Position numbers and translations under genes: made by a program. From the NCBI GenBank assembly GCA_017506865.1, contig JAFCMP010000246.1:992001-1056000 (forward strand): a DNA stretch of 64,000 nt. The letters are read 5' to 3'. The notes under the pieces are model-generated. The model did no database searches and had not been told where the DNA came from. It saw nothing but the letters and a program-made list of their open reading frames with translations. How positions within the stretch are numbered: position 1 is the first letter of the stretch; each line of letters begins with the position of its first letter. Origin of the DNA: Tribonema minus (lineage: Eukaryota; Sar; Xanthophyceae; Tribonematales; Tribonemataceae). Of the stretch, positions 5,615-55,829 are shown in pieces.

Positions 5615-6538
5615 GTAAAATAACATTTCTATGCCCATTTCTATACTCAACGAAAGATGGCGCGTAGGAAGTGAGCTTCACACCATTCGTGCCAGCAGCG
5701 GCGGCAGCGGCGGCGATGCAGCACCATTGCGCCTAAATAACCGCAGCAGCCACCGCCAGTAGCAGCAGCACACGAAGTCCTGCAAGAGAACGGATTTAGC
5801 GGAATCAGCAGCCTCAGCACCATCGGCAGCATCACCTGCAAAAGCGAGTAGCAATGACGTCAGCTGCAGCAGCCGCCTTCAACCAGCACCACAGGCACCT
5901 TCAGCATTAGCATGACTATGAAGCTAGCGACAGTGCACGTTTTGCCCCATCCTTCAAGGGAAAAGCATAGTGACTACCAGGGGGGCTCTGGGCATGCAAC
6001 AGTGGTCAGACTGCATGCGAGCTTTTCTTTTTGCAGTTTACTGTAGTTTCAAATGCAATGATTTGAGCAGCTTCAAGGAAATTGTGTTCTGGCAGTCAGC
6101 GTAGGTTTGCTTGAGATGAAAATGGCCAGAGGCACCCAGGGGACATGTCCACAGGATTATGCATCCACACAAGACAGCACAGCCTTGCATATTGAAAATT
6201 TGACAAGTTGAACATGGCGCACACAGACAAGAGAATGCATGTTGGAGTATCGCCTTCGTATGCCCCTCTTTCTTTGGACTTGCACAAGCTGCTGTGACTG
6301 CCCTTGCCATGTGTTCATGAAGCATTGCTTGGAATTCCGTGATCTGTTTTGATATTGCTTTCAGCAGTGTTTTGGCATCGCTCTGCATTATTCGCTGAGT
6401 ACATCAGCCTCATGATAGCGCAAGTCTGCGTGTTGTGCGATTTGTGTCATGTGATTACGGGGGGAACTTGATAGTCTGATTCAGTTTGTTGAAGTTGATC
6501 ATGCGTGTGTACCTCTGTGCGAAGGCGGGCTGGGCTAA
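5615..6538. other. Gap between the MYB gene and a LINE 3' end
   Basis: No convincing coding exon was found. A following MYB exon would be expected if 5615 is a real donor, but none was identified. The stretch is of mixed composition and may be intron or the 3' side of the MYB gene. Confidence 0.4.
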
Positions 6539-8425
6539 GTGCAACTAGAATTTGGAGCTGCAAGAGTGCCTGCGGATGCCGCATTTGCAAGATTTGCCCG
6601 ACCATACCCACAGCAGAGTGCGTGTCACCACTCATGGACATCACAGTATATGCAAGCACGGCTGAGGGCATTCAAGATGTGGCCTTGGCATTGCATTCAC
6701 TTTCTACTAGTAGTACACGACGCAGCTGCCGCTGGATCAGGGGCCGCGGCGGCAGCACAGGCGGCACCAGCGGCAGCAGCAGCAGCGGCGGCGCACGGCG
6801 CAACTACTCCGGCGGCAGCAGCAGCGGCGGCAGCAGCAGCTGCTCCAGCATCAGAGGCTGCTGCAGCAGCGGCAGCACATGTTGCACCTCAAGTGGCCTC
6901 GGCGGCATCACTAACTGCAGCATCAACAGCAGCGGCTGCGGGCATAGGCAACACAGCTGCTACAGGCCCTAGCCTAAGGGCTGCTGCAGCACCTCCAACA
7001 GGAGCAGCGTCGGCAGGCGGCGCCGCAACCGTGCCGGCTGCGACAGCGGCAATGGCGGTGGCAGCTGCCAATGCGGCAGGTGCTGCACCAACACCTGCGG
7101 CAGCAGCAACACCACTGGCAGCAGCAGCAACGGCAGGCGGCGCAGCTGCAGCACCAGCGCACGCAGCAGCGGCAGCCGTCAATGCAGGCGCTGCGCGTTC
7201 CACACCAGCAATGCTACAAGGCGCAGCAGCAGCAGAGGTGGCGCGCCTGCCCCTCATGCGGACGATCGCCACAGCTGCCACATCTCTACGTGCAGCAACA
7301 GGTGACAAGCTGGAACATATACTGCCACCAGCGCTAACGCCACTGCAGCAGCAACCACCTACGCAGCAGCCGCCGCTGCGGCCGACAGCAGGTGGTGGCA
7401 CTGGTGCGGATGCTGCTTGCGTACTTGACGCCAGTGCTCTGCAGTTGCAGTGTAGCCTGAAGCGCCCCAATCAGAGTGCGCTTGCAGATGCCGTCGCTAC
7501 CGAGCTTGCAGATAAGGTGGAGGCGGACCTGCAACAGCTGCCGCAGGGCACGCAACGCACGCAAGCACTTGCTCGATTCCGGTCGCAGCGCCACATGCAC
7601 TCGATCGGCATGGCATTCCTCAACGAGCCCATGTACTCCACAACGGCTTCGTTCGATGGCCTATCCTGGCAGCTGGCCGTCAAACGCGCCATCGGAGTAG
7701 AGGAGCAGACGGCAGGCTGCAAGCTGTGCGGGAAGTCGCCGGGCGGCACCCTGCATGCACGGCTGTGTCAAGCGCCACGCGTCAAGGCGCACGACACCAT
7801 CGTCCACAATAGCGTCAAGAGGGCCACGCAGCGCATCCTGCGGCAATACCTCAAAACGGGACTGGTGGACGAGGACTACACGCCGTTTCTGGGGTCCGCC
7901 GGGCCGCCGGGGAGTCGCAGGATGGACATCGTGCTGCCTGCCGACGCCTTCCCGGTGACCGGCTGCGACGACCCGACACGCCACCGACCGCTCATGGTGG
8001 ACGTTACCTGCTTCGAGGCACAGGTGGCGTCGCGGGCGGCGAAGACTGCAGCAGACCCCGAGCGATGCTGCCGCGACCAAGAGGCCGCCAAGACTACCCA
8101 CTATTCTGGTCATTATGATCAGAATTGCTACAAACTTGCCACTTTGGCAATAGGGTCATTTGGCAGCATCGGGGAGCAGGGGCGGAAGCTGCTGGAGGCT
8201 GTGGCGACGGAGTATGCCAGCAGGATGTCAGTGCCCGGAGGAGCGCGCCCTAAAGCTCTCAAGGGCATCGCCCTGGCGCGCTTACGCTCGGCACTGTCGG
8301 CAGCGCTCCGCATGGCGTACTCTGGCCGTGTCATGACACACATGGCAGAATCCAGGGGGGGGGGGCACATGGAGGAGGACGTAGGGGAGGACCCCGAGAT
8401 GCCATTTGGCGGCGGCGGCGTTTGA
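6539..8425 (+). CDS. LINE C-terminal protein: Ala-rich tract, CCHC-like knuckle, restriction-like endonuclease-like domain
   Basis: The frame is open for 628 codons; the first in-frame ATG is at 6650. The first part is Ala-rich and encoded by GCA/GCG repeats, with a Q/P tract near 7340-7380. The C-terminal ~330 residues carry ALARFRSQR, a Cys-rich knuckle CKLCGKSPGGTLHARLC, HDTIVHNSVKR, then RRMDIVLP and about 20 residues later LMVDVTCFEAQV, and AIGSFGSIGEQGRKLLE. This order (knuckle, basic helix, R/K-x-D...D strand pair, late FE/SxG motif) is that of proteins following the reverse transcriptase in RLE-type non-LTR retrotransposons. No reverse transcriptase precedes it, so it is probably a 5'-truncated copy whose start codon is not original. 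The ORF at 48 kb has the same layout with different sequence. Domestication is possible but unsupported. Confidence 0.6.
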   Translation: MQLEFGAARVPADAAFARFARPYPQQSACHHSWTSQYMQARLRAFKMWPWHCIHFLLVVHDAAAAGSGAAAAAQAAPAAAAAAAAHGATTPAAAAAAAAAAAPASEAAAAAAAHVAPQVASAASLTAASTAAAAGIGNTAATGPSLRAAAAPPTGAASAGGAATVPAATAAMAVAAANAAGAAPTPAAAATPLAAAATAGGAAAAPAHAAAAAVNAGAARSTPAMLQGAAAAEVARLPLMRTIATAATSLRAATGDKLEHILPPALTPLQQQPPTQQPPLRPTAGGGTGADAACVLDASALQLQCSLKRPNQSALADAVATELADKVEADLQQLPQGTQRTQALARFRSQRHMHSIGMAFLNEPMYSTTASFDGLSWQLAVKRAIGVEEQTAGCKLCGKSPGGTLHARLCQAPRVKAHDTIVHNSVKRATQRILRQYLKTGLVDEDYTPFLGSAGPPGSRRMDIVLPADAFPVTGCDDPTRHRPLMVDVTCFEAQVASRAAKTAADPERCCRDQEAAKTTHYSGHYDQNCYKLATLAIGSFGSIGEQGRKLLEAVATEYASRMSVPGGARPKALKGIALARLRSALSAALRMAYSGRVMTHMAESRGGGHMEEDVGEDPEMPFGGGGV

Positions 8426-8533
8426 GTGGTTGTCGTTGCGACACTTTCAGACTGTCATACGACATGTAGATTCCTTACAGCTAGATGCCAATCATCTGGG
8501 CTTTTTCGCGCCCTGAGCGAGAATTAATAAAAA
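6539..8533 (+). mobile_element. LINE family A, 3' portion, copy 1
   Basis: The ORF is followed by a ~108-bp 3' UTR ending AATTAATAAAAA at 8533. The last 70 bp recur almost exactly at 9378-9450, which fixes the 3' end. GTACGAGTACTCG follows immediately. The left end and 5' target duplication were not found, so the left boundary is only the start of the open frame. Confidence 0.6.
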
Positions 8534-8690
8534 GTACGAGTACTCGTCCTGTACGAGTACTGCCTTTGAAATCATGTACGAGTACTCGTCCTGTACGAGT
8601 ACGGCCTCCGAAATCATGTACGAGTACTCGTACAGTACGAGTACTTGCGTACGAGTGCTTCTACGAGTACGAGTAACGAGTAAATGACTT
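8534..8690 (+). repeat. 42-bp tandem repeat rich in GTACGAGTAC
   Basis: Two full 42-bp units (8534-8575 and 8576-8617) differ at about two positions. A degenerate tail with further GTACGAGTAC/CGAGTACTCG palindromes runs to about 8690. The array starts exactly at the 3' end of LINE family A. Confidence 0.85.
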
Positions 8691-9367: not shown

Positions 9368-9460
9368 GTACACACTCGACATGTAGATTCCTTACAGCTA
9401 GATGCCAATCATCTGGGCTTTTTCGCGCCCTGAGCGAGAATTAATAAAAAGTACACACTC
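9368..9460 (+). mobile_element. LINE family A, 73-bp 3' tail copy with target duplication
   Basis: Positions 9378-9450 match the 3' UTR end of the copy at 6.5-8.5 kb (GACATGTAGATTCC to AATTAATAAAAA). The insert is flanked by a perfect 10-bp direct repeat, GTACACACTC, at 9368-9377 and 9451-9460. Severe 5' truncation plus a target duplication is the signature of target-primed reverse transcription. Confidence 0.85.
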
Positions 9461-16100: not shown

Positions 16101-19100
16101 CACCCCAACAGCCAGATCATCGCGACCGTCTGCAGTGACAGGCGCTGCCGCGTAATCAGCGCGACGATGCAGGAGGTGGATGCCACAGCTGATGCAGGGC
16201 CCTTTGGCCAGCCTGCGGCTTTTGGCGAGGTGAGGCGTAGTGTAGATGAGTCATGAGTCCTTGATAGAGTCACTCGGGTAGAATACGTAGGTGCGCAGAA
16301 GCGGGCTGGTAGGGTGTGAAGTCCAGTACATGTTAGTTGCAATATTGACATCGCGCAAATCACCGTGCAGAGGAACCTGAGCTTGAGCCATGACAGCAAC
16401 AAGTCACACACACGTGCTAGTGTGTTGGAAAGGAAGTGATACTACAAAGCACAGCAAGCCTGGGCATTCCAGCTCAGGATTGCTGAGTCATCCATGAAAA
16501 AGATCTCGAACTGATCTCGAACAGATCTCGAACAAACTGCAATGTCAAGTGCACAACTTCAAGTGCAACCTGACTGCTACAAAACAGTGCTCAATTCAAC
16601 ACCCTCCCCCAGTCAACACTCCCATGAGCTTGACTGTCAAAACTGAAATGACAACTGTGGCAGAGCCTGGTGCCTTACTCTGCGCTGCCACTAAACAACA
16701 ACTGCAATCATGCGCTGCCCAAAAGCGCCGCTGTGTGGAAGTGGTGCTGAACTGTTGGTCAGCACATCTGCATGCTGCTCCTGTGTGCGCACTGACTCTA
16801 CTGAAACTAGTCCAGCCTGCACTTGCTCGCGCACATAATGGTACTTTACATCAATGTGCTTAGTGCGCTGCGAGGCACCTGCGTCCGCAGCTAAATGGAT
16901 CGCCGCTGCATTGTCCTCCATAATGCGCACCACCCCCTGCTCCGCGCCAAGAAACTCCAGCAGCTGCGCCAAAGGCCGCACTTCCTTGCTAGCCTCGCAA
17001 AGCGCCACGTACTCCGCCTCCGTTGAAGAAAGCGTGACGCAAGGCTGCAGTTTCGAGCGCCAAACTACCGCCGCTCCGCAGAGCAGAAACGCGTAGCCGG
17101 TCTGACTGCGCCGCGTAGAGCTGTCGCTGGCGAACGACGCGTCCGCATAGCCGACCAGTTGCAGCTGCGCTCCCTCCTGCCGCCTGTAGGTGATACCTGT
17201 GGGGTGGCCCATCAGGCAATGCAGCACGCGCTTGGCTGCCTCCATGTGGCACCGCTTGGGCTGCGCCATGTGCCGCTGTAGCTGCGACACCGTAAAGCTG
17301 ATGTCCGGGTGCGTGCAAGTGGCTATCCACTGCAGTCCGCCAACCATGCTCTGGTACTCTGCTACCTGAGCTCCCTCCAGCTGCGCTGACTCCTCTGCTG
17401 CAATAGCCGTTGTCGCCGCTGGGTTGTGTGCCGGATGCGCGCCTAGCTGGTGGTGACGCTCCAGCAGCGTGTTGATGTAGTCTGGTTGCGAGAGCGTGAT
17501 GCTGCCGTCGTCGTGGCGCGTGAAGTTGATGCCGAGGAACCGCGTGGGAAATCCCAGGTCCTTGATGGCGAACTCGCTGGCGATGAGGTCAACGGTCGCC
17601 TGCAGCACGCCGCTGTCCGTGCTGCCCGTTGTGAACACGTCGTCCACGTAGATGACCACGATGACTCCGTTGCTGCAGTTGCGCAGCACGCAAGCGTCCG
17701 CCGGTGACTGAACAAAGCCGTGCTCCAGCAGAAAGTCGATCAGCTTCCTGTGCCAAAGCGCTGGGCTCTGGTGCAAGCCGTAAAGTCCCTTGTGCAGCTG
17801 CATCACAAGAGGCTCGCCGTCTGCTCCGCGCTGCACGTAGCCCTCTGGCTGCCGCACGAATGTAGGCTTGTCGATGTCGGCTTGGACGAACGCGTTCATG
17901 ACGTCGCAGATGTGTAGCTGCCAGCCGTGATGAGCAGCTAGCGCCACAACAGACCGTAGTGACTTGATGTCTGCGGTGGGCGCGTAGACGTCGTCGAAGT
18001 CGATGCCGGGTCACTGCTGATTGCCCCGCACTACTAGCCGCGCCTTGTGACGAACAACCTCGCCTTGCTCGCCGAACTTGGTCTTGAAGACCCAAGTGCA
18101 GCCAAGCACTTTGGCGCCCACCTCCACCTCACTGCGTGGAATGAGACTCCAAGTGCCCCTGCCCTGCAGCTCCGCAATCTCGCGATCGCACGCTGCTCGC
18201 CGCTTGCCGCCATCAGTGCCCGAGACAGCCTCCCTGTACGACTTGGGGTCTGCTGGCACCTGCTCCGCCAAGGCAGCAAATCTCGCGGCAGGCTGAGCCG
18301 AGTAACCGCGCCCGCTGCGCGTACGCGACGCCTCAGGTGCTACTCAGGCGCCCTCCCCGGGCTCTGCTGCTTCCACATCTGCTGCATCTGCTGTTGCGTC
18401 TGCTGCATCTGCTGCGTGCGCGCCAGTAGGTTGAGGCTGCTGCTGTTCTCCCTCCTCCACTGATGGCGCGTCAATAGTGGCAGGCGACTCTCCGGGCATT
18501 TCTATGAAGGTGACATTCCTGCTGACCACTACTTGCCGGGTGCGCTCGTTGTAGATAAGGTATCCTCCGCGAACAGACTCTGACCAGCCGACCAGCCGCC
18601 CGCGCCAGCCCTTGTTGGTCATCTTGCCCTGTTCGCCTTCCGCGCACACGTACGCATAGGAGCCAAACACCCGTATGTGCTCCAGGTTCGCCACCTTGCC
18701 CGTCCACGCCTCGTACGCCGTCTGCCCCCCTATGGCTGAATGAGGGCTCCTGTTGATGAGGTAAACTGCCGCCTGCACTGCATGCTCCCATAGAAATAGT
18801 GGGAGGGAAGCATGCTGCAGCATGCAGCGGGCCTTGCTGTTGATTGTGCGCCAAGCCCGCTCCGCGATGCCGTTGGACTCCGGAGTGTACGGCGAAGAGT
18901 GGCTGAGCAAGTACCCCGCCGAGCGCGCGTGCTCCTGAAGATCTGCGCTAATGAACTCCTTTGCGCAGTCCATGTGCAATTCGTGCATATGCACCGCTGC
19001 AGGCGCCAGTACCTCCCTGCGCAGCCGCTCCACGTCTGCCACCTGGTCACCCTTGTGCCGGTGACACAGTAAATTACATGGTACCTAGATACCTCGTCGA

Positions 19101-22100
19101 TGAACACCCAAGCGTAGAGGCTCCTGTTGCGGCTCTCCACCTCGTAGGGCCCGGCCGTGTCCGAGTGCCAAAGCTGTCCTTTGGCAGTAGCACCCTGTGT
19201 GGCCTGAGGGGGGTGCGGCTGGTGAGCTGCCTTGCCCAAATGGCAGGTCTCACAAGGCTCCAGCTCCCCAACTGGAAGTTGAACTCCGGTCCCCTCCGTA
19301 TCTGCAAGCCTCCGCATGTCCGCCAGGTTGAGGTGCCCCAGCCGCTGATGCCATCGCTGCAGAGAAACCTTCGCTGCATAAGCGGCTGCGCCCTCCTTAC
19401 CGCCTCCAGCAAGCTGTGCGGCTTTGCTGTCCAGACGCACCCTGAAGCGGAAAAGGCCTCCGTATGGCTCCAAACGTACCTCCTCGCGAGGTTCTCCAGG
19501 CAGAATTAACTTGGAGTGATGCTTGCTGAGAATGACACTGCCGCCATGCTTGGTCAGCTGTGAGGCACTGAGCAGTAACTGTCCTGACCCGGGAATTACT
19601 ACTGCCTCCCGCACCAGCAGCTGCTCCTCGCGCCCGTGCTTGACTGGCACCTTGATGTGCAAGTCCGCTACGCCCACCGACACCGTGACCTCCCCAGAAG
19701 CTGAAGCATGAGCAGTCTCCACCGGGATACGATCGGGCCGCCATGCTGAAACTACTGAGCTCAAGTCGACCCCAAGCTGCAAAGGGTCAATGATGTGCCG
19801 GTTTGCTCCACTGTCCACGTAAATGTAGACATCGCCAGACGCCTGCTGCTGCTCAGGCACAGCTGCTGCTAAAGCAGTGCCCTCACCCTGCGACTCTCCG
19901 ACCCGAGCGATGCAAGCCCGTGTAGGATCCTCGCCGCCTGCCTCTTGCTGACGACGCTGCTGCTTCGCCAAGGACTTCTTTGCCGCAAATGACCCTGGCG
20001 CCGGCTTCTTGCCGGCCTTTTTCTGTTTGCACTCGTAAGCCCAGTGACCTACGCGCCCGCACCAATGACACGCGCCCTTGACTTGAGGCACGCTCCTGTC
20101 CAGACCCTTGCCTGGAACCTGTGCTGCAAAGGCTGCCGCGCCCTTGCCGGTCCTCGCAGCTGCGACCTCCGCGTCGTAGTGCGCCTTGAGCTGCCGCTCC
20201 GCCTCATCCAAGTCCATGCGTGGCATGCACCGGAGATTAGTAGCCACCATCCGGTAACATTCCGTGTTGGGGAGACCCCGCAACAAAAGCAGCAGCAGCT
20301 CGCCATCAGCCATCGCTATACCCAGCGTGGCCAATCTGGACCGCAGGTAGCGCGCGTGACCGAAATACTCCGCCACCGAGCGCTCCCCCATCTCCAGAGA
20401 GTGCAGCTGGTCCGATATTGCCATGGCCGTACTGACGCTCCTAGGCTCGAACCTCCGCTGCAACGCCCTGAAGGACTCCCTTCCGTGCCTGTTGTTCCCG
20501 TCGCGTAGTAGGATGTAGTGGACGTCAGTCGCCTTGCGGGACACGCAGGCGACCAACGCTGAGTAAATCCTGACGTCCAGCTCGTCGTAGACGCGCTGGT
20601 TGCTGGCCCGCAGCCCAACGTCGAACTGCTCTCCCCATTGCACCATGCATGCCGGGACTCCTTCGCACAGCAGTGCCGACTCAAACGCGTTGGCGAACAT
20701 AGGCCAATCCTCCTCCTTGCGGTCGAATAACTCTAACTTCAGCTTGAGCTTAAGGCTCATAACCGTTGCAATATTGACATCGCGCAAATCACCGTGCAGA
20801 GGAACCTGAGCTTGAGCCATGACAGCAACAAGTCACACACACGTGCTAGTGTGTTGGGAAGGAAGTGATATTACAAAGCACAGCAAGCCTGGGCATTCCA
20901 GCTCAGGATTGCTGAGTCATCCATGAAAAAGATCTCGAACTGATCTCGAACAGATCTCGAACAAACTGCAACGTCAAGTGCACAACTTCAAGTGCAACCT
21001 GACTGCTACAAAACAGTGCTCATTTCAACAGTTAGGTTCACCGTACGGGTTACCCTTTTTGCTGTCAGTATGCCGCCTAACCCTAAACCCAACCCTAGTT
21101 GCCCATGCAGTCATACCTTGTGCACTTGTTTTGATTTGAGTATACAGCAAATATGCTCCTGCACATCACTCTCGCTCTCTCTGTGGGCGTTCACATCCAC
21201 TGCAATGCAGATACGCCCAGCTGGGCAGAGCTGATGCAACTTCTATGCATATCGTTAACCCTAACCCTGGCCCTGACGCATGTCTGCACAAGTGAAAGCA
21301 TCAGCTCTGGCTCAAACATACTCCAACTCTGAGCCTCAACTGCTCTGTGTCAGGACTAGGATTGCGCTTGGGATTAAATTGGTTCTTAAGGTCACCTATT
21401 GCAGGATCACAAAGTTTCGGTTGACAAAGCACTGACCCCCCCCCCCCTTCCTTCCCCCCCTGCCCGTATTGCAGGTATACCCCAACGCCGAGTACCCATG
21501 CGCGGGCTGGGCAGTGGCTGCCGCTTGGAGCCCCTCCGGCACAAAATTGTGCTTTGCCGCCCACGACAGCAGCATACACATTGTAGACTACGCAGCAGGC
21601 GGCACGGTGTGCGCCGTCAACTACAGCCTGCTGCCACTGTCGGCGGTAATGTTCTTGGGCGAGGGCGCCGTGGTGGGAGGGGGGCATGACATGGAGCCGC
21701 TGCTGTTCAGCCGTGACGCGCAGGGCGGCTGGTGAGTTGTTTCACTTGCACTTGAGAAATTGAAGTTGGGGTTTTACTCTTTGTTTTGATAAGCGGAGTG
21801 ATACATGCGAGTGCACTTCCAATACTGTCAAGAGACATGTACGCGTGTGTCGTGTGTGAGCATACGGCGTTCAGCAGTTTTGCTGCGCAAACTCTGTGGC
21901 AAATGCCATCTACCGCATACTGTTCATGGGTATAAGCCAGGTGTAGTATTGTTATTGTCGTGCGGTGTTGTCGGGGGAGCTTGAAGGGAGTAGAGGCCAC
22001 ATGGACCTTACTTGGTTTTGGTGGTGACCTGCATGTCACCTGGCAGTGACACCTGTATACCCACCTCTTGACCCACCCGCTGCAATCACTTCTCATCTTC

Positions 22101-47912: not shown

Positions 47913-48943
47913 GTACATAGTCTCGGCTGGTGCCGTGGGCAAGCCGACGCAGGCTACACTTATTGGTGACTCGCGTGACACCAGCCGCCGCCGCCAACAG
48001 GCTAGCGCGCGGGTCCTGGCGCAGCTGCGCAGCCAGCGTGCGTCCGGGGCAATGGCGTGGATGAGCGTGCCACCCGTTGCCAATGACCGCCCGGGTGCGG
48101 CGCCCATGTCCAGTATGGCAGCAGCCACGATGATTTTGGTTGCGATATTTATAGACGGGTGGGGCATACAGGGCGAGGTGTGCCCATGGCGGTGCAGTGA
48201 CGTGAGCCCCACCTCCACGCATGCGATCAGCTGCCCCAGCCAGCACATACGGGGGCACAACGCGACACACACTGCCCAAAAGCGGTGCCTACAGCGCATC
48301 TTGAGACAGCACCAGGTCTCTATTGTCCGCAATGAGGACGCTAGCGTCTTCAAGGTACCGGGGTATCGGGCGGACACAGTCATTGACCCAGGGTGTCTGC
48401 ACTTTAGCATTGCATACCGTAACAAGGGAATAGTGCTAGACACAAGTGTGCGCGCGCCCACAGCGAGCTCGTACCTGACAGGCAAAACAAATGCCTCGAA
48501 CACGGACGGCTATGCTGCTGGGGTGGGGGAGGACACGAAGGTCAAGCACCACACCGGCACCTTGACGTCATCTTGGGCTTTTGTGCCATTCGTGCAGGAG
48601 TCGTACGGACGGCTGGGCAAGCAGACAAGCCTTTTTGTTAAGGAGTTGGCAATGCACTCCAGCACTGTGCTCAGGGGGGGGGAAGGCAGATGTGTTACGC
48701 AAGGCCGGGTTAGCTAAGCGTCAGATCCACATTGAGCTGAGCATATCGCTGGCGCGGGAGTTGGCGGAGCGCATCATGGCATACACACGTGGAGCGCGAA
48801 TGCTGGGCTGTGTTTCGGCGCCGGTATCCAAACTCCTAGGGCACAGCGCAGACTAGGCTGCTGCGTTGACGCAAGCTTTTCGATTGCATAGGCAACCCGG
48901 CCTCCCTTGGGCCCTTATAAATACAAGTCCATACGTACATAGT
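47913..48943 (+). mobile_element. LINE family B, copy 1 (1,013 bp, 5'-truncated) with target duplication
   Basis: The insert 47922-48934 is bounded by a perfect 9-bp direct repeat, GTACATAGT (47913-47921 and 48935-48943). The 3' end, TTATAAATACAAGTCCATAC, is shared exactly or nearly so by copies at 53.4, 55.7 and 63.1 kb. It encodes the C-terminal part of a LINE polyprotein. Confidence 0.9.
47922..48855 (+). CDS. LINE family B C-terminal polyprotein fragment
   Basis: The frame enters from flanking DNA and is coding from 47922. It shows LAQLRSQRASGAMAWMSVPP, a zinc-knuckle-like CPWRC..STHAISC, IRGHNATHTAQKR, YRADTVIDPG..GIVLDTSVRAPT, TGTLTSSWAFVPFVQESYGR, then LGKQTSLFVKELAMHSS. This is the AWL..P / knuckle / RHN / ADV..D / PLVxExxG arrangement seen after the reverse transcriptase in many algal non-LTR elements. 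The frame stops at 48717. A one-base difference from copy 2 near 48660 separates it from the last ~45 codons, which end KLLGHSAD at 48855. No reverse transcriptase is present because the copy is 5'-truncated. Confidence 0.7.
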
Positions 48944-49821
48944 ACTGCTGGTCTCACAGCACAGCGCGACACCATACACGCAGACAGAGACTGGTGGCAC
49001 TGCAGTGCCACAGTGTGTGCGACGCGCGCGCTGAGCTGTTGTCCGCGTCGGGGCACCCGTTCAGGGTAAGAATCAGGGTTAAGCTTTAAGCTCATGCGCG
49101 GGGGCGCGCACGAGGTCCTTCACGAGGGTGTGACAACAACGCCGCAAGCGCATCGCTGCCCTAGGCACACCGCACGGTGGCTCTTATGCAATGTCCACGT
49201 GCGGTTCGCATGCTGCAGCCACGGCCCTTTTGTGTGGCTGCTCTGTGCACGAAGCCTGAGGTTGTGCCTCTCGTGCGCCGGCTGCACCTGCCTTGCGCTC
49301 CCTCGGCGGCGCCGGACACCCACAAGCGCAGCACTACGCACTCCACAAGCGCAGCACTACGCACTTCTTTGGAAAAAGGTTTTGACATGAAATGAAATAC
49401 TACTCATGCGCGGCGCTGCGCGCAGGCACAGGCAGCGACACCAAGCCGCCTTGTAGTAAGTGTCCTGTTCAGCCACGGAGACTCAGTGTAGAAACCGTGA
49501 CAGAACCTGGCCCTTCACCACAGCAGCGCGTGTAAGGAAACTCGTATCATACCCAGCAGCAGCGCTTGACGGTGCTGATTGACGCCCCCGTCCCCCTCTT
49601 GCCACGCGGCCGTCATACGACGAAAAGAACAAGCGAGAAGGGAAAACAGCGGAGCAACAGTGGCACGCAGATGCATCAGCGTGACCAAACAAGTTATTCT
49701 GAAAGCACGCACCGGTTGCCGCAACCTGAGCGTGCGAGTGAGAGACTTGCAGTACACGCCCCCCACCAGCAGCGGCGATCAACAGTGCTGACGCCCCCTC
49801 CCCCCCCCGTACGGCCCTCAG
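48944..49821. other. Non-coding gap
   Basis: No domain-bearing exon was found. A short direct repeat (GCGCAGCACTACGCAC twice near 49325-49365) was seen. Confidence 0.35.
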
Positions 49822-49916
49822 GCGGAGCGCCGGAGCTACGCAGCGGCCGCGACGTAGCACAACGCGTGCGACAGCTGCGCCGCGTGCTTGCGGTGTGGCG
49901 CGCCAGCGCAGTTCAG
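49822..49916 (+). CDS. Candidate exon, Arg-rich helix
   Basis: Acceptor CCCTCAG and donor GTCAGC bound a frame reading GAPELRSGRDVAQRVRQLRR then VLAVWRASAVQ. The W-R helical style resembles CVLRAWREAAAA at 46.3 kb. Family unknown. Confidence 0.3.
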
Positions 49917-51227
49917 GTCAGCGGAGCACGCTCAGCTTTGATTGAGCAATTCTTCAGACTGGGGTTGCGGTGCACGTTCGGCTTTGATCGGGCAACTTCT
50001 CACTGCAGGTGGCGCTTTCGGTGCGCAGCGCTGGTGGTGGCGGCAGTGGCGGCCGGGGGCTGACGCGTTGCACAGGATTGATGGTCGTCCTGCAACGCGT
50101 GCTACCACTAGCATTCCCTTCTTGTTCCGCGAGTTCGGCCGCTCAAGGCAGGCGAACATCACTCCCCCACCCTGCTCTCGCGGTCGCAGCGGCTTTCAGC
50201 ATATACCTCATTTGCACAACACCTTCGCAGCGACTCACGCTACCACCTCGTGATGCTCTCAAACATCACACCCCTCACCCCGCGGCGCCCTCGCAGCTGC
50301 GCGAGGAGTGCGCAGAGGCAGCACACAAGGGCCGCCACGAATGCACTGCAGCGACACCATCAGCTGCGCATCAACCTCACATCACCCTCTGTGGACAAGC
50401 CTCGTCACAGCGGTTCTTGACAATCTTGCAATACCGAGAGGGAGCTCACCCCACAGTTCCGGCCCTCCCCCCCCCCCTTGCAGCTGCACCACAAGCGCAC
50501 GGAGGCTGCACACGAGGCCGCTGCAGGGCTCTCGTGGCGGCGGCGGTGAGCGCGGTCGGCGAGCGCGCTGCTGCCGCTGTCGCACCGCCTAAGCAAGCGA
50601 CGCATGGTGCCAGCGCTCATCTCAGCGGACGCAGCAGCGGCGGCGCGCCCGCCAGTGCCTGCGGTGAGTGGCGATGAGAGGGGGCGGGGGGTGCTGATGC
50701 CAGCAGCAGCGTGTGATGTGCATCTTGCGCGTTTGACTCATTTGACTACTATACACGACTGAAGGTTGCGGCACCTAGGGCTGCGTTGAGCACTGTGATC
50801 AGCAGACATTCAGGCGCAGCAGCACAGTGCGTCATGCCGAAGTTGGCGGCTGCTGACTCTGTGACTTTCCGCCTCGCCCCAAGAAGACTTCATTGAAGCG
50901 TGCTGTGTGGCATGGAAATCGCTTCGCATTATCGCCCAAGCAGCGTCGTGCCGCGTGCGTGTTTGAGCACGTCAGCGCCGCGGTGGGAAATTGGCCCGGG
51001 GCTCCGTTTATGCTGTTCCAGAGTGATGTGCCAGTGGCAATGGCAGCAGTGCGCAGCACAATGATGATGATGGTTGCTGGCACGTGCTCTGCGTTTTACC
51101 GCAGAACATACTTCAAGTATGAAGTGCATATGCAACAGCGGCCTAAACACTCGTACGCAGCATTGTCATGACGACTGGCCCTTGCTGCTTGTGCCGTTGC
51201 TGCGTGCATGCGCCCCCCTCGCACCAG
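49917..51227. other. Gap with weak helical frames
   Basis: Short acceptor-bounded frames LREECAEAAHKGRHEC (from 50297) and LHHKRTEAAHEAAAGLSWRR (from about 50480, before a GTGAGC donor) resemble each other and could be exons of one coiled-coil gene. Evidence is weak. Confidence 0.25.
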
Positions 51228-51346
51228 GCGCCAGTGGCGCCGCGGCTGCGGCAGCAGCGGCGGCGGCAGCGGCGGCGGTGCGGCGCTCCGCCGAGGAGCG
51301 CAAGCGCGTGCAACTGGAGCGCGCCGAGACGCAGCACAAGCGGCAG
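51228..51346 (+). CDS. Candidate exon, poly-Ala then coiled coil
   Basis: Between CACCAG and GTGCGC the frame is GASG, an Ala run of about 12, then VRRSAEERKRVQLERAETQH and KRQ, a strongly charged coiled coil. It may belong with the other helical exon candidates at 46-50 kb. Confidence 0.3.
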
Positions 51347-51841
51347 GTGCGCGTTGCACGAGGAGAGACGCCAGATGCTGCCGTTTAAACACATTTGAAC
51401 TGATGTACCAAACTGAGTCCTCAGAGAGAAGTATTTTTAGGTGCTTAGACACAGTCTTGACAGAATTCGACCAAAGGCCACTGTGACATTCCCGAGTAAG
51501 TTTTGGCAGTCATCTTAACCGACACTGCTTTTGCCCTAGCTCATCATTACTTCGTGCCTCGTAGGCGTCGCGTGCACCTCAACTTCCAATCAGCAGCCTC
51601 TGTTTGCAACCTTTGGTACACGTCAGGTCCCCCGAACCTGATTAGCGATTTAGCTGGCCTTTCATTGCCCTCATTTGTTTTCAAGATTTGAGCACAAGTA
51701 ATCGGCCACGTCAACTTGTTGAACACAAAAAAGGCGACTTGCTCGTGTTCGCTCCCCCATGTTCGCTGGGCGGTCCCGTTTAAGACTGGGTCTTACTGCT
51801 TCAAAATTCTATGTGGAGTACTTCAAGATCTATCTCTCAAT
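51347..51841. other. Non-coding gap
   Basis: No gene or strong repeat was recognised. Confidence 0.35.
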
Positions 51842-52459
51842 CTTGTACCGTAAATGCCCCAGTAAACGCCCCCCCGGGAGTGCGGATCTGGACCTTTGCA
51901 CGCACGCCCATGGGCGTTTACACAGGGGAGGGGCCTGTACACGGGGGGGGGGCGGCTTCGCTGCTTCATTTGGAATTGCTAGCTTCAAGGGGGCGTTCAC
52001 AAGAGGGGGGGGGGGCCAGGGTTTACTAGGGTCCGGAGGGGCGTTTACAAGGTGCGGCAAAAAGTAGTGGGGTGGCGATAGCGGATGTCTCTGATGACAG
52101 CAATGGCGGTGCTGCTGTAGCTATGACAGCTCTTGCAAGCGAGCATTGTGGCCTGTGTGACCATCCATTGACAGCAGAGAACTCAGAACGATAATGAGTT
52201 GAAGTTTGGCTTCAAATTGGCTTAATTGAATGCTTTTTCCAGCTGTTTTTGCAAGGCCCCGTGCCACTCTACATCCATTATGATAATGGTTATGGTTGCA
52301 AGGGGGCGTTTTGAACGGGGGAGTGGGCGTTGTTGCCCAATTTGCCCTAGGGCTGGCAGCAGTCGCCAGTGGCACGCCCATGGACGTTTGCGAGGGGGAT
52401 GGGCCTATACAGGAGCCCTGAGGGGAGGGGGCGTACTACTCGGGCATTCATGGTACTTG
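51842..52459. mobile_element. MITE-like element with imperfect ~28-bp inverted ends and GGCGTTTAC repeats
   Basis: The left end (51846 on) reads TACCGTAAATGCCCCAGTAA then ACGCCCCC. The right end, reversed from 52455, reads TACCATGAATGCCCGAGTAG then TACGCCCCC. CTTG flanks both sides (51842-51845, 52456-52459). The inside is packed with GGGCGTTTAC / ACGCCCATGG units and G runs. No coding capacity is seen, so it would need a transposase in trans. Confidence 0.6.
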
Positions 52460-53347
52460 TGTACCATTTTATAAAAAAAAAAAGAGAAAGCCTTAGGAAA
52501 GTGGCACACATTTATTCACCCTCCTGAAGCCATTTGTTGGACTGACCAAACAGACAAATGTGGGACACGGCACCTTGAGACTTGACTGCTCACAAAACAC
52601 GTGTGATTTACACTAATGCGCAATGGCAGGCACCTGGCACAGGCGCCACTGACAGCAGGCCCTCAGGGGCAATAAGGAGGCCCTGGGGTGAACAATTATT
52701 ATAGACTCTCGGAGACACACGCATTTGCACCACCTTCAAGTTGACTGCGCATGCGTTGTAACCATTGTATTGACGATGTTTTCCAGCGTGGTGGAGGTCC
52801 ACAACTTGAAGTGCCTCTGTTACAGTAGATGTTCTGTGCTCATTTAAGGCCTTTTTCGTGGGCCAAAGACACTGAGTCTTTGTGCCAATTCACTGTATTC
52901 CCAAAGTTGCCCCATGGTACTGCTGTTCCTGCCAGTGGACCAGTTCTGTTGCCGCTGGACCGTGACACCTCTACACAATATGCATCACACAGCTGCCCTT
53001 GTGCTGCAAGAATTTCAGAATCGAAACACACTGCAACGGCGTTGTTGCTACTAGTAGTACTGATATGTGACCACATCAGGCCAATCTGAAAGCAGACACC
53101 TCACTGGCAGGCGGCCTGTACCAGTTGTAATGGGACCGAATGCCCAAATCATGATGCCAGTGCTGCTGAATGTTGCTGCGAACTTCATTGAACACGCCAC
53201 TGCTCAGCGGCTTCAAGTTCAATACCACTCAGTTAGGCTGCTGCAGCAGCCTGAGATGGTCCACATTTCTACATGACAGATTACATTAAATTTTTCCTGG
53301 AGTACGGAAGCCTCTGAGTCACTCAGAGCAGTTTGGTACTACTAGTA
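52460..53347. other. Non-coding gap
   Basis: A poly-A run (about 52472-52482) follows the MITE. No gene was recognised. The DNA becomes less GC-rich from here rightwards. Confidence 0.35.
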
Positions 53348-53711
53348 GTACGGTAAAGCAAGCAGACAACATGAAGCCTTTTTGTCAAGGAGTTGGCAAT
53401 GCACTCAGCACTGTGCTCAGGGGAGGGGAAGGCAGATGTGTTACGCAAGGCCGGGTTAGCTAAGCGTCAGATCCTCATTGAGCTGAGCATACTATAATAG
53501 TATCGCTGGCGCGGGAGTTAGCGGAGCGCGTCATCATGATGGCGTACGCACGTGCAGCGCGAATGCTGGGCTCAGCCTGTGTTGCAGTGCCGGTATCCAA
53601 GCTCCTAGGGCACAGCGCAGACTAGGCTGCTGCGTTGACGCAAGCTTTTCGATTGCATAGGCAACCCGGCCTCCCTTGGGCCTTTATAAATACTAGTCCA
53701 TACGTACGGTA
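53348..53711 (+). mobile_element. LINE family B, copy 2 (~348 bp) with target duplication
   Basis: The insert 53356-53703 matches the last ~340 bp of copy 1. It is flanked by GTACGGTA at 53348-53355 and 53704-53711. It carries small insertions relative to copy 1, including one near 53492 that reads CTATAATAG. Its C-terminal frame ends in the same LLGHSAD motif. Confidence 0.9.
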
Positions 53712-55666
53712 GAGCCCTAGGAGAACCGTTGACTGCAGTCGTCGCAGCGGGCCCCACTGGCAGCTTGAAGCGTCTGCTCGCATTCTTTAAACTTGAAGGG
53801 AGCTGAGGATTGCCAACTTGTCAAATTGTTTAAACTTCGACTAAATGTAACATTCAATGTAATTCAAATTACCCTTTCATTGACAAGTTGATGTGACACA
53901 CTGTGCTGTTTGAAAACGCACGCACGCACTGCACTGCATGGCATGCACAAGTAAGTGCAGGCGCCGGACTCGGAGTATACCGTTACGGTAACGCCGTAAC
54001 GCCTGGACTGACTCAGAGTATTACAGACACCGACGTCTGGGCGCGCAGGCGCACACAAGCGAGCAGGGATGGAGCATGACTCTACGACCTGAGCTAGCTT
54101 TCAAGGTTCAACTTGGCAATGCTATTTTATCTGCGAGCGAAGCTCGCAGCAGGGCCCCTGGCCTTGCCGAGCAGAGCGAGAATCTAGGCCGCGCGCGTGT
54201 GCGCGTATGTGTCGGGGAAGGCGACCCAAAGTCTGTTTGTTTGTCTTCGACAAAAACTTTTCCTGGGAAATTTACTTTCGAGTTTTGACGCAAAACAAAG
54301 ACTGTATGCCTGGGGCCAGGCTGAGCGCTAGCAGCTTCGCAGCCATGGCGGCTAGCTCAGCAGAAGTTTCGCAGCCATGGCGGCTAGTGGCTCGGGCAGT
54401 CTCAAGTTTGTGTTCTGGATGCCAACCAGCACCGCAAGTTGGGCGCGTGAGCTCCTAACCGGTGACCCATGGTGGTGCCAGCAGTGACCCTCCTGCTCAG
54501 TCCTGCTCAGTCCTGTGCTGTATGACCATTCTATGAGCCGCTCCTGAACCGCAGGGCATGCTTGACAAATTGGTTGCAGGCCAGCTAAAAGGCGAGGGAT
54601 GTGAGCTTCCCTGCTGATGGGAGCTTCACTGCACCTGCTCTCTTTACCTATTAGTGCAAGACAGACAGCAGCGCTTGCAAAGCACCACCGACCAACTGCA
54701 TGGCGACACACCTGAAGGCGGCTGCTACTGCAACGTTTAGCTGCAACATGCTGCAAAGCTGGACAGCCAACTTGAAGGAGGAAAGGGCTCAGGAGCAGGG
54801 CTCTGTGGATATGGTCACTCACGGTGTACTGTGGTTGACGAGGTAGTGCGCTATCTTGGACGCAAGAAGCAACAGGGTAAGGATTAGGGAGACTCAAAGA
54901 GGTCATGCAGAGAGCACTGATGTAATTGAAGTGGACTTCGACCTCAGCATGTTATTCCTCTTCCAACTTACTAATTGGCAGCACAGTGACTGTGCATACA
55001 GTGCCACAGTCACTGTGTCCGGTCGGGCTTCATTGCGGAGCAACCGCCCCAGTGCCGCCACTGCAGTGCGCAGTTGCACTGCTGCTGTAAGTAGTGCACT
55101 GCAGTGCTATGCCTTCAGGCTGTCTCTGGCATAGCTGTATTATGAAACAACTTGAAGCAGCACTGCCGCAGCACCAGGTGCAGCTCAAGCATGTGCAACT
55201 TGAATGCAAAATTTAATCTGGCTGGCTCAGGCTGGTGGGTTTGTAGTGTGACCGGGTGTTACCATCTCATGCGTCAGTGTATGGCAAACATAGTAATACC
55301 ATGGACAAGTACTGTAGCTCAAGCAGAACATACGTGTAGTGCGGCACTAGGCATTCTGTCAGTGAAAATCTACTGGACTGTTACGTTCTCTCATTAAATT
55401 GACAACTGGGTAAATTGAACACTTCATCCGTCAAGACTAAGTCAAACTATAGTATAATACTATAGTACCTGTAATTGGTTGCTGCTGCATCACTTAATAA
55501 CATGCAATAAAATCCACCAAGACTTCATTTTGTAACACACCAGTTTTAAAATCAGAGCAGGATTAACCGGAGGTTATGGGCCTGCACTGATCATGTCAGC
55601 TTCGCTCGCAGGCCCATAGGCTTTGCCTACAAGTATTATATGCCGGGCGACCCGGCAGCGCACAGT
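53712..55666. other. Repeat-rich non-coding gap
   Basis: No supported gene. Contents include palindromic CACAGTCACTGTG-type words (54990-55020), a duplicated TTCGCAGCCATGGCGGCTAG (54332-54390) and TGCAAAATTTAATC-type AT-rich DNA. Confidence 0.4.
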
Positions 55667-55829
55667 GTACTCAGTGTGGAGCGCGAATGCTGGGCTGTGT
55701 TGCGGCGCCGGTATCCAAACTCCTCGGGCACAGCGCAGACTAGGCTGCTGCGTTGACGCAAGCTTTTCGATTGCATAGGCAACCCGGCCTCCCTTGTGCC
55801 TTTATAAATACAAGTCCATACGTACTCAG
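55667..55829 (+). mobile_element. LINE family B, copy 3 (147 bp) with target duplication
   Basis: The insert 55675-55821 is nearly identical to the last 147 bp of copy 1. It is flanked by GTACTCAG at 55667-55674 and 55822-55829. Confidence 0.9.

Follow-up and report, generated by a model that had tools for sequence, protein, structure and literature searches.

Two families of repeated elements in the genome of the alga Tribonema minus, which we term A and B, share one insertion target: the anatomy of their copies, the target duplications around them and a degenerate motif at their junctions identify GTAC as strongly preferred, although not absolute. Both families are very probably non-LTR (long terminal repeat) retrotransposons whose insertion, through target-primed reverse transcription, takes place at dispersed, protein-recognized (A/T)^GTAC sites. 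Members of both lie in a 64,000-nt stretch of contig JAFCMP010000246.1 (positions 992,001 to 1,056,000, forward strand), referred to here as the window, in whose positions coordinates are given; the host genome comprises 158 Mb in 554 contigs. Whole-genome pattern counts include any haplotype, segmental or assembly duplicates.

Three family B copies lie on the plus strand of the window, with differing starts and a common 3' end, i.e., ...(A/T)AGTCCATAC. A preliminary description, made from the window sequence, had reported this shared 3' end, the different 5' truncation points and the perfect direct repeats starting GTAC that bound each copy, and all of its coordinates proved correct. Copy 1 (1,013 bp, 47922-48934) is a 5'-truncated long interspersed nuclear element (LINE) whose alignment to a longer genomic copy starts at position 5729 of 6740 and runs to the end, and is flanked by GTACATAGT at 47913-47921 and 48935-48943. 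Its coding part (47923-48660) holds a zinc knuckle, CPWRCSDVSPTSTHAISC, from 48181, and a region resembling a restriction-like endonuclease (RLE), in which RAD lies at 48367 and another D follows 22 residues later; zinc knuckle and RLE-like motifs were picked by eye throughout. Copy 2 (348 bp, 53356-53703) lies between two copies of GTACGGTA (53348-53355 and 53704-53711), and copy 3 (147 bp, 55675-55821) between two copies of GTACTCAG (55667-55674 and 55822-55829).

A genome search with the family B 3' end, with both flanks of each hit, had been proposed as the test of a GTAC target, and its outcome was as predicted. The exact 3' end, TATAAATACNAGTCCATAC, occurred 1,116 times genome-wide (reversed-pattern control, 0), and 1,369 times when up to one mismatch was allowed (control, 1). 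Directly after the exact end stood GT in 1,078 of the 1,116 (96.6%), GTNC in 1,047 (93.8%) and GTAC in 898 (80.5%). Strictness differed by position, with C at position 4 in 1,047 of the 1,078 that had GT, and A at position 3 in 898 of those 1,047. The background frequency of GTAC was 242 in the 64,000 bases of the window (about 0.4% of positions) and 1,154 in the window and the fetched loci together (354,601 bases), so that its presence at family B junctions is not due to chance.

Both ends were read for 44 distinct family B copies, i.e., the three in the window and others fetched from the genome. Most of the fetched copies came from a ranking by similarity to the window 3' end, best first, so that young copies are over-represented; eight further copies were eight of the first ten places in the genome listing, two neighbors on contig C1 being skipped. 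Left out of the 44 were L012 (duplicate flank of L006), repeat records of copies that had been fetched twice, and those for which the 5' end was beyond the stretch (L009, L014, L017, L018, L021, L039 at 4633, L061 and L062). With a threshold of 5 bp or more in the main searches, a target duplication was present in 31 of the 44 copies, at many different 5' truncation points; all began GT and were 7-16 bp long, mostly 8-9 and 11-13 bp. The first tetramer was GTAC in 27, GTGC in two, GTCC in one and GTAA in one; the first 26 duplications gave 22, two, one and one, and five more, from the eight further copies, were all GTAC. A 9-bp duplication at L027 was counted despite one mismatch, and L035, L036 and L049 were counted with 6-12 unaligned bases between duplication and element start. 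Among the first 26, a small sample, lengths fell into two clusters, 8-9 and 11-13 bp, and no duplication was 10 bp long.

The duplications were not due to chance either. A copy's own 3' flank gave an 8-bp match near its 5' junction in 23 of 24 family B copies, whereas when 3' flanks were swapped among the 24 such a match arose in 10 of 552 pairings. The off-consensus tetramers (GTGC, GTCC and GTAA; L029, L031, L036 and L038) were identical on the two sides of the insertion, which indicates that the target supplies the motif. Immediately before the site, at a position that belongs neither to the duplication nor to the primer, the base was A or T in 24 of the 26 copies (29 of 31 with the five further copies), against a background of 295 of 484 GTAC sites in the window (p = 4e-4 for 24 of 26, in a post hoc test).

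The same target is used by a second family. In a tblastn search, the family B protein matched a distantly related sequence in the window (24.9% identity, E 1e-6), a 628-residue open reading frame (ORF) at 6539-8422 on the plus strand, with a C-terminal zinc knuckle (7718) and an RLE-like region (RRMD at 7916); in the knuckle-RLE alignment the two families are 28% identical. The family A 3' end, ...GAGAATTAATAAAAA, is unlike that of family B, and in the window it reads GAATTAATAAAAA, followed by GTAC at 8534-8537 (together 8521-8537, plus strand). Genome-wide, GTAC followed the exact family A 3' end in 1,609 of 1,716 cases, and of 14 A-type ends with up to three differences in the window and fetched DNA, 13 were followed by GTAC and one by GTAT (L043). 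Clear duplications were seen at three of 12 family A ends examined, i.e., GTACACACTC, GTACTTG and GTACAGCGCGGG, the first enclosing a 73-bp copy in the window (plus strand, 9378-9450, with duplications at 9368-9377 and 9451-9460). Seven further family A ends showed no clear duplication; five of these came from stretches of about 356 bases, in which the 5' end was probably not reached, and one (L063) was followed by GTAG, within family A sequence itself. Around position 1710 of L027, a 12-bp family A remnant (AATTAATAAAAA) lies inside the 12-bp duplication GTACAGCGCGGG, a strikingly short insertion.

The longest family B copy (L044 plus L051) measures 9,770 bp between duplications of GTACAAAAAAGC and has an open frame of 2,993 codons, with the first ATG at codon 44. 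Seventeen long copies, which were among the closest matches, agree at 98.4-100% over their last 1,000 bases, so that these at least are young. Family B has the hallmarks of a LINE, i.e., a constant 3' end, variable 5' truncation and duplications of variable length (in 31 of 44 copies). Its reverse transcriptase was recognized by RVT_1 (PF00078) at 30.0 bits, with a cut-off of 29.6, in the part of the protein spanning reverse transcriptase and RLE; on a longer fragment the score was 28.3 bits, below the cut-off. After this match come the zinc knuckle and then the C-terminal RLE-like region. RVT_1 was the only family that Pfam matched credibly in the element proteins, sequence searches against PDB yielded no credible match, and the Pfam scan of the window family A copy found no reverse transcriptase.

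The knuckle that follows the reverse transcriptase in RLE LINEs is given as CX2-3CX7-8HX4C (PMC5678591), and the spacings here are CX3CX8HX3C in family B and CX2CX8HX3C in family A, the last being 3, not 4. The RLE catalytic motif is given as PD(X)10-14D (PMC3118788), and the catalytic-like residues picked out here are RAD...VLD, 22 residues apart, in family B and RRMD...MVD, 25 apart, in family A. No Pfam endonuclease family, including the apurinic/apyrimidinic endonuclease (APE) type, matched in 2,974 of the 2,993 codons (those in L044), a scan that also missed the RLE. The elements had previously been called RLE-type LINEs. This assignment is the weaker part of our reading: neither Pfam nor PDB matched an RLE, and domain order, knuckle, the degenerate motif and the likeness of A to B suggest a putative RLE. 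In the N-terminal half, an OTU-protease-like motif (GNGNC...GHF) was noticed by eye; neither Pfam nor PDB supported it, and it is not claimed. No relatives were confirmed in viral contigs, and the RNA folds of the two 3' ends showed no clear gain in stability over shuffled sequences (z -0.13 and -1.30).

From the junctions we infer how insertion may proceed. The element protein would recognize GTAC and nick the bottom strand exactly at its edge: since the 3' junction is constant at the edge of GTAC, this nick would leave a ...GTAC-3'OH primer, from which the element RNA would be copied, starting at its exact 3' end. The variable other end points to a second cut in the top strand, usually 7-16 bp away, where no strong sequence preference was apparent in our small sample. 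Such an offset would yield duplications that begin with GTAC and then vary, around copies that are commonly 5'-truncated. Were GTAC cut symmetrically, at its two edges, the duplications would be 4 bp long, and a check for these on the twelve copies without a longer one found a single possible case, L042, in which GTGC overlaps the element by one base. The preliminary description had named GTAC the likely cleavage site, and the genome-wide junctions and the duplications are as it predicted; recognition would probably fall to the nuclease domain, with the C-terminal RLE-like region as candidate. We incline, though only slightly, to a broader picture in which these families form a LINE lineage whose RLE recognizes a palindrome of 4 bp in the manner of a four-cutter restriction enzyme, except that it makes a strand-specific nick at one edge; the palindrome would permit entry from either strand, each insertion would regenerate the target, and specificity would have been held while the nuclease diverged to about 28% identity.

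Several observations weigh against the main reading, insertion at protein-recognized GTAC sites. A tetramer other than GTAC, mostly GTNC, followed 218 of the 1,116 exact family B ends (19.5%), so that the earlier statement that all copies sit in GTAC duplications holds for the three window copies and goes too far for the genome as a whole. When duplications were aligned the expected GTAC start was found in 27 of 31, leaving four that start otherwise; duplications lacking GTAC, which had been named as counter-evidence, therefore do exist, as a minority. Twelve of the 44 family B copies had no duplication of at least 5 bp (L003, L005, L026 minus strand, L032, L039 at 8944, L040, L041 minus strand, L042 at 8902, L045, L046, L059 and L041 plus strand), and the last of these, a diverged copy, was followed by TAATTG, not GT. 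L006 lies in a tandem array where the duplication is ambiguous, and is included in the 44 and not in the 31. The canonical proline is missing from the RLE-like region, whose D-to-D spacing (22 and 25) is longer than that of the published motif, neither Pfam nor PDB gave an RLE match, and AlphaFold2, run on the RLE-like region with a two-sequence alignment from the window, gave no usable model (mean predicted local distance difference test score, pLDDT, 35.6).

Two family B copies have 5' junctions of separate note. L045 (on C551) has GTACACAT at its 5' end and GTATATAG after its 3' end, which is no exact duplication; the two positions that differ, both C/T, might reflect mutation of a GTAC duplication after insertion, and the case was not counted. 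In L026 (C12, minus strand), a 5'-truncated copy, the 5' end (minus-strand position 170) directly abuts telomere-like (CCCTAA)n repeats, and it looks like a chromosome end that broke inside the element and was then healed.

Could the specificity lie in the RNA instead of the protein? GTAC is self-complementary and stands just downstream of most exact-ended A and B copies, so that read-through RNA ending ...GUAC would be able to anneal to any nick ending GTAC-3', made by an unspecific nuclease. We consider this unlikely, because the preference for A or T (24 of 26) falls beyond the primer, across the nick, which argues that a protein reads the site. Sites with GTGC and GTCC were also used, with their own letters on both sides, although this alone would be compatible with imperfect pairing.

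Insertions of the two families also share individual sites. Families A and B were found tail-to-tail on one GTAC in 16 places (C57, C60, C96 and 13 other contigs), about seven times more than the ~2.4 expected from a rough uniform estimate, in a count that includes duplicates. Two family B copies stood tail-to-tail on one GTAC in five places on three contigs, not all of them independent. In L065, copies in the order A, A, B are stacked at one GTAC site, with GTACATTTTACA occurring three times (once at the start and once on either side of B) and GTACATCTTACG between the two family A copies. The tail-to-tail pairs and the stacking in L065 indicate that GTAC remains on either side of each insertion, available to the next one.

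This excess of B at family A junctions, and a target common to two distantly related families, could also be explained if open or unmethylated GTAC-containing DNA, a host factor or a host nuclease set the bias, and not the element protein. That explanation seems to us improbable, a little more so than base pairing: the family B junction fell exactly before GT in 1,078 of 1,116 copies, and strictness was unequal by position (1,047 of 1,078 against 898 of 1,047), as for an enzyme that reads sequence.

Uninserted sites confirmed that the tetramer belongs to the target. Ten joined sites were searched in one query. The L031 site was found contiguous across the junction in four places (two at 100%, one at 94% and one at 91%), two of which were inspected; the uninserted site agrees at every one of 66 bp spanning the junction and contains a single GTCCGTTTTGA, with one copy of the tetramer. 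For window copy 1, two diverged paralogs on C530 (83-84%) were both uninserted and had GTAC at the site, although 3 bp of the duplicated sequence are missing from each. For the remaining eight joined sites, none of the 54 matches listed spanned the junction. The notion that GTAC is the element's own 3' end, with the 5' GTAC arising by coincidence or end-joining microhomology, fits the GT found after 96.6% of exact family B copies, but we regard it as refuted, since the duplications reach 3-12 bp past the tetramer, with the same bases on the 5' side, a tetramer that departs from the consensus does so identically at both ends, the motif also follows the unrelated 3' end of family A, and the empty L031 site has one tetramer copy; the earlier view of GTAC as target, not element, was therefore upheld.

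Among known systems, L1-type LINEs resemble families A and B in their short preferred nick site, dispersed insertion, variable duplications and 5' truncation, and differ in having an APE endonuclease, a T-rich degenerate site and a poly-A tail. Dualen/RandI elements have a large ORF in an algal genome, as does family B. We turn to the RLE-bearing groups for closer comparison. Dualen/RandI encodes both APE and RLE (PMC4640811), whereas no APE family matched in the 2,974 of 2,993 codons scanned here. RLE LINEs are described as mostly inserting at one site in a multicopy gene or in a microsatellite (PMC4640811). The R2, R4, NeSL, CRE and Utopia groups have a reverse transcriptase, zinc knuckle and C-terminal RLE and insert by target priming (PMC4640811, PMC5678591), to which the putative RLE and probable target-primed insertion of our families would correspond; they differ in that their targets are mostly described as such a gene site or microsatellite (PMC4640811), not a dispersed 4-bp site. 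GTAC is also a much shorter target than the long repeated sites usual for RLE LINEs. HERO, also a clade of RLE LINEs, is described as containing many non-specific families and some that are microsatellite-specific (PMC4640811), unlike the GTAC preference here. The nearest functional parallel is Entamoeba EhLINE1/SINE1, with a CCHC and PD(X)10-14D endonuclease, duplications that vary from site to site, and preferred nicks, one of which is a SINE1 insertion point; its specificity is reported as nicking hot spots with contextual bases (PMC3118788), whereas here it is one palindromic tetramer, at 80-94% of exact-ended copies. The earlier remark that a dispersed 4-bp target is unusual agrees with these accounts, and our literature search, outside which lay Repbase and most subscription journals, found no report of a GTAC-targeting LINE; one listed paper that contains GTAC concerns a chicken retrovirus.

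According to a review, the R2 endonuclease contributes to integration specificity (PMC12203849), and the question of target specificity bears on R2-based gene insertion tools as well. Two families with a dispersed palindromic 4-bp target and thousands of copies would allow a binding matrix to be read, and would make the share of the endonuclease in LINE target specificity directly testable.

Elsewhere in the window, a comparison with Rfam gave no match at gathering scores, and long open frames on the minus strand (16694-20832) resemble, by eye, a Copia-type LTR element. The light-harvesting sequences of the host genome mark the host as photosynthetic and probably an alga, with a plastid that may, to judge from the names of the PDB matches, be of the red lineage. 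The genome contains 92 matches to the chlorophyll a/b-binding family PF00504. One light-harvesting fragment had fucoxanthin chlorophyll a/c proteins as its best PDB matches, and another had PDB matches named LHCI, chlorophyll a-b binding and ACPI.

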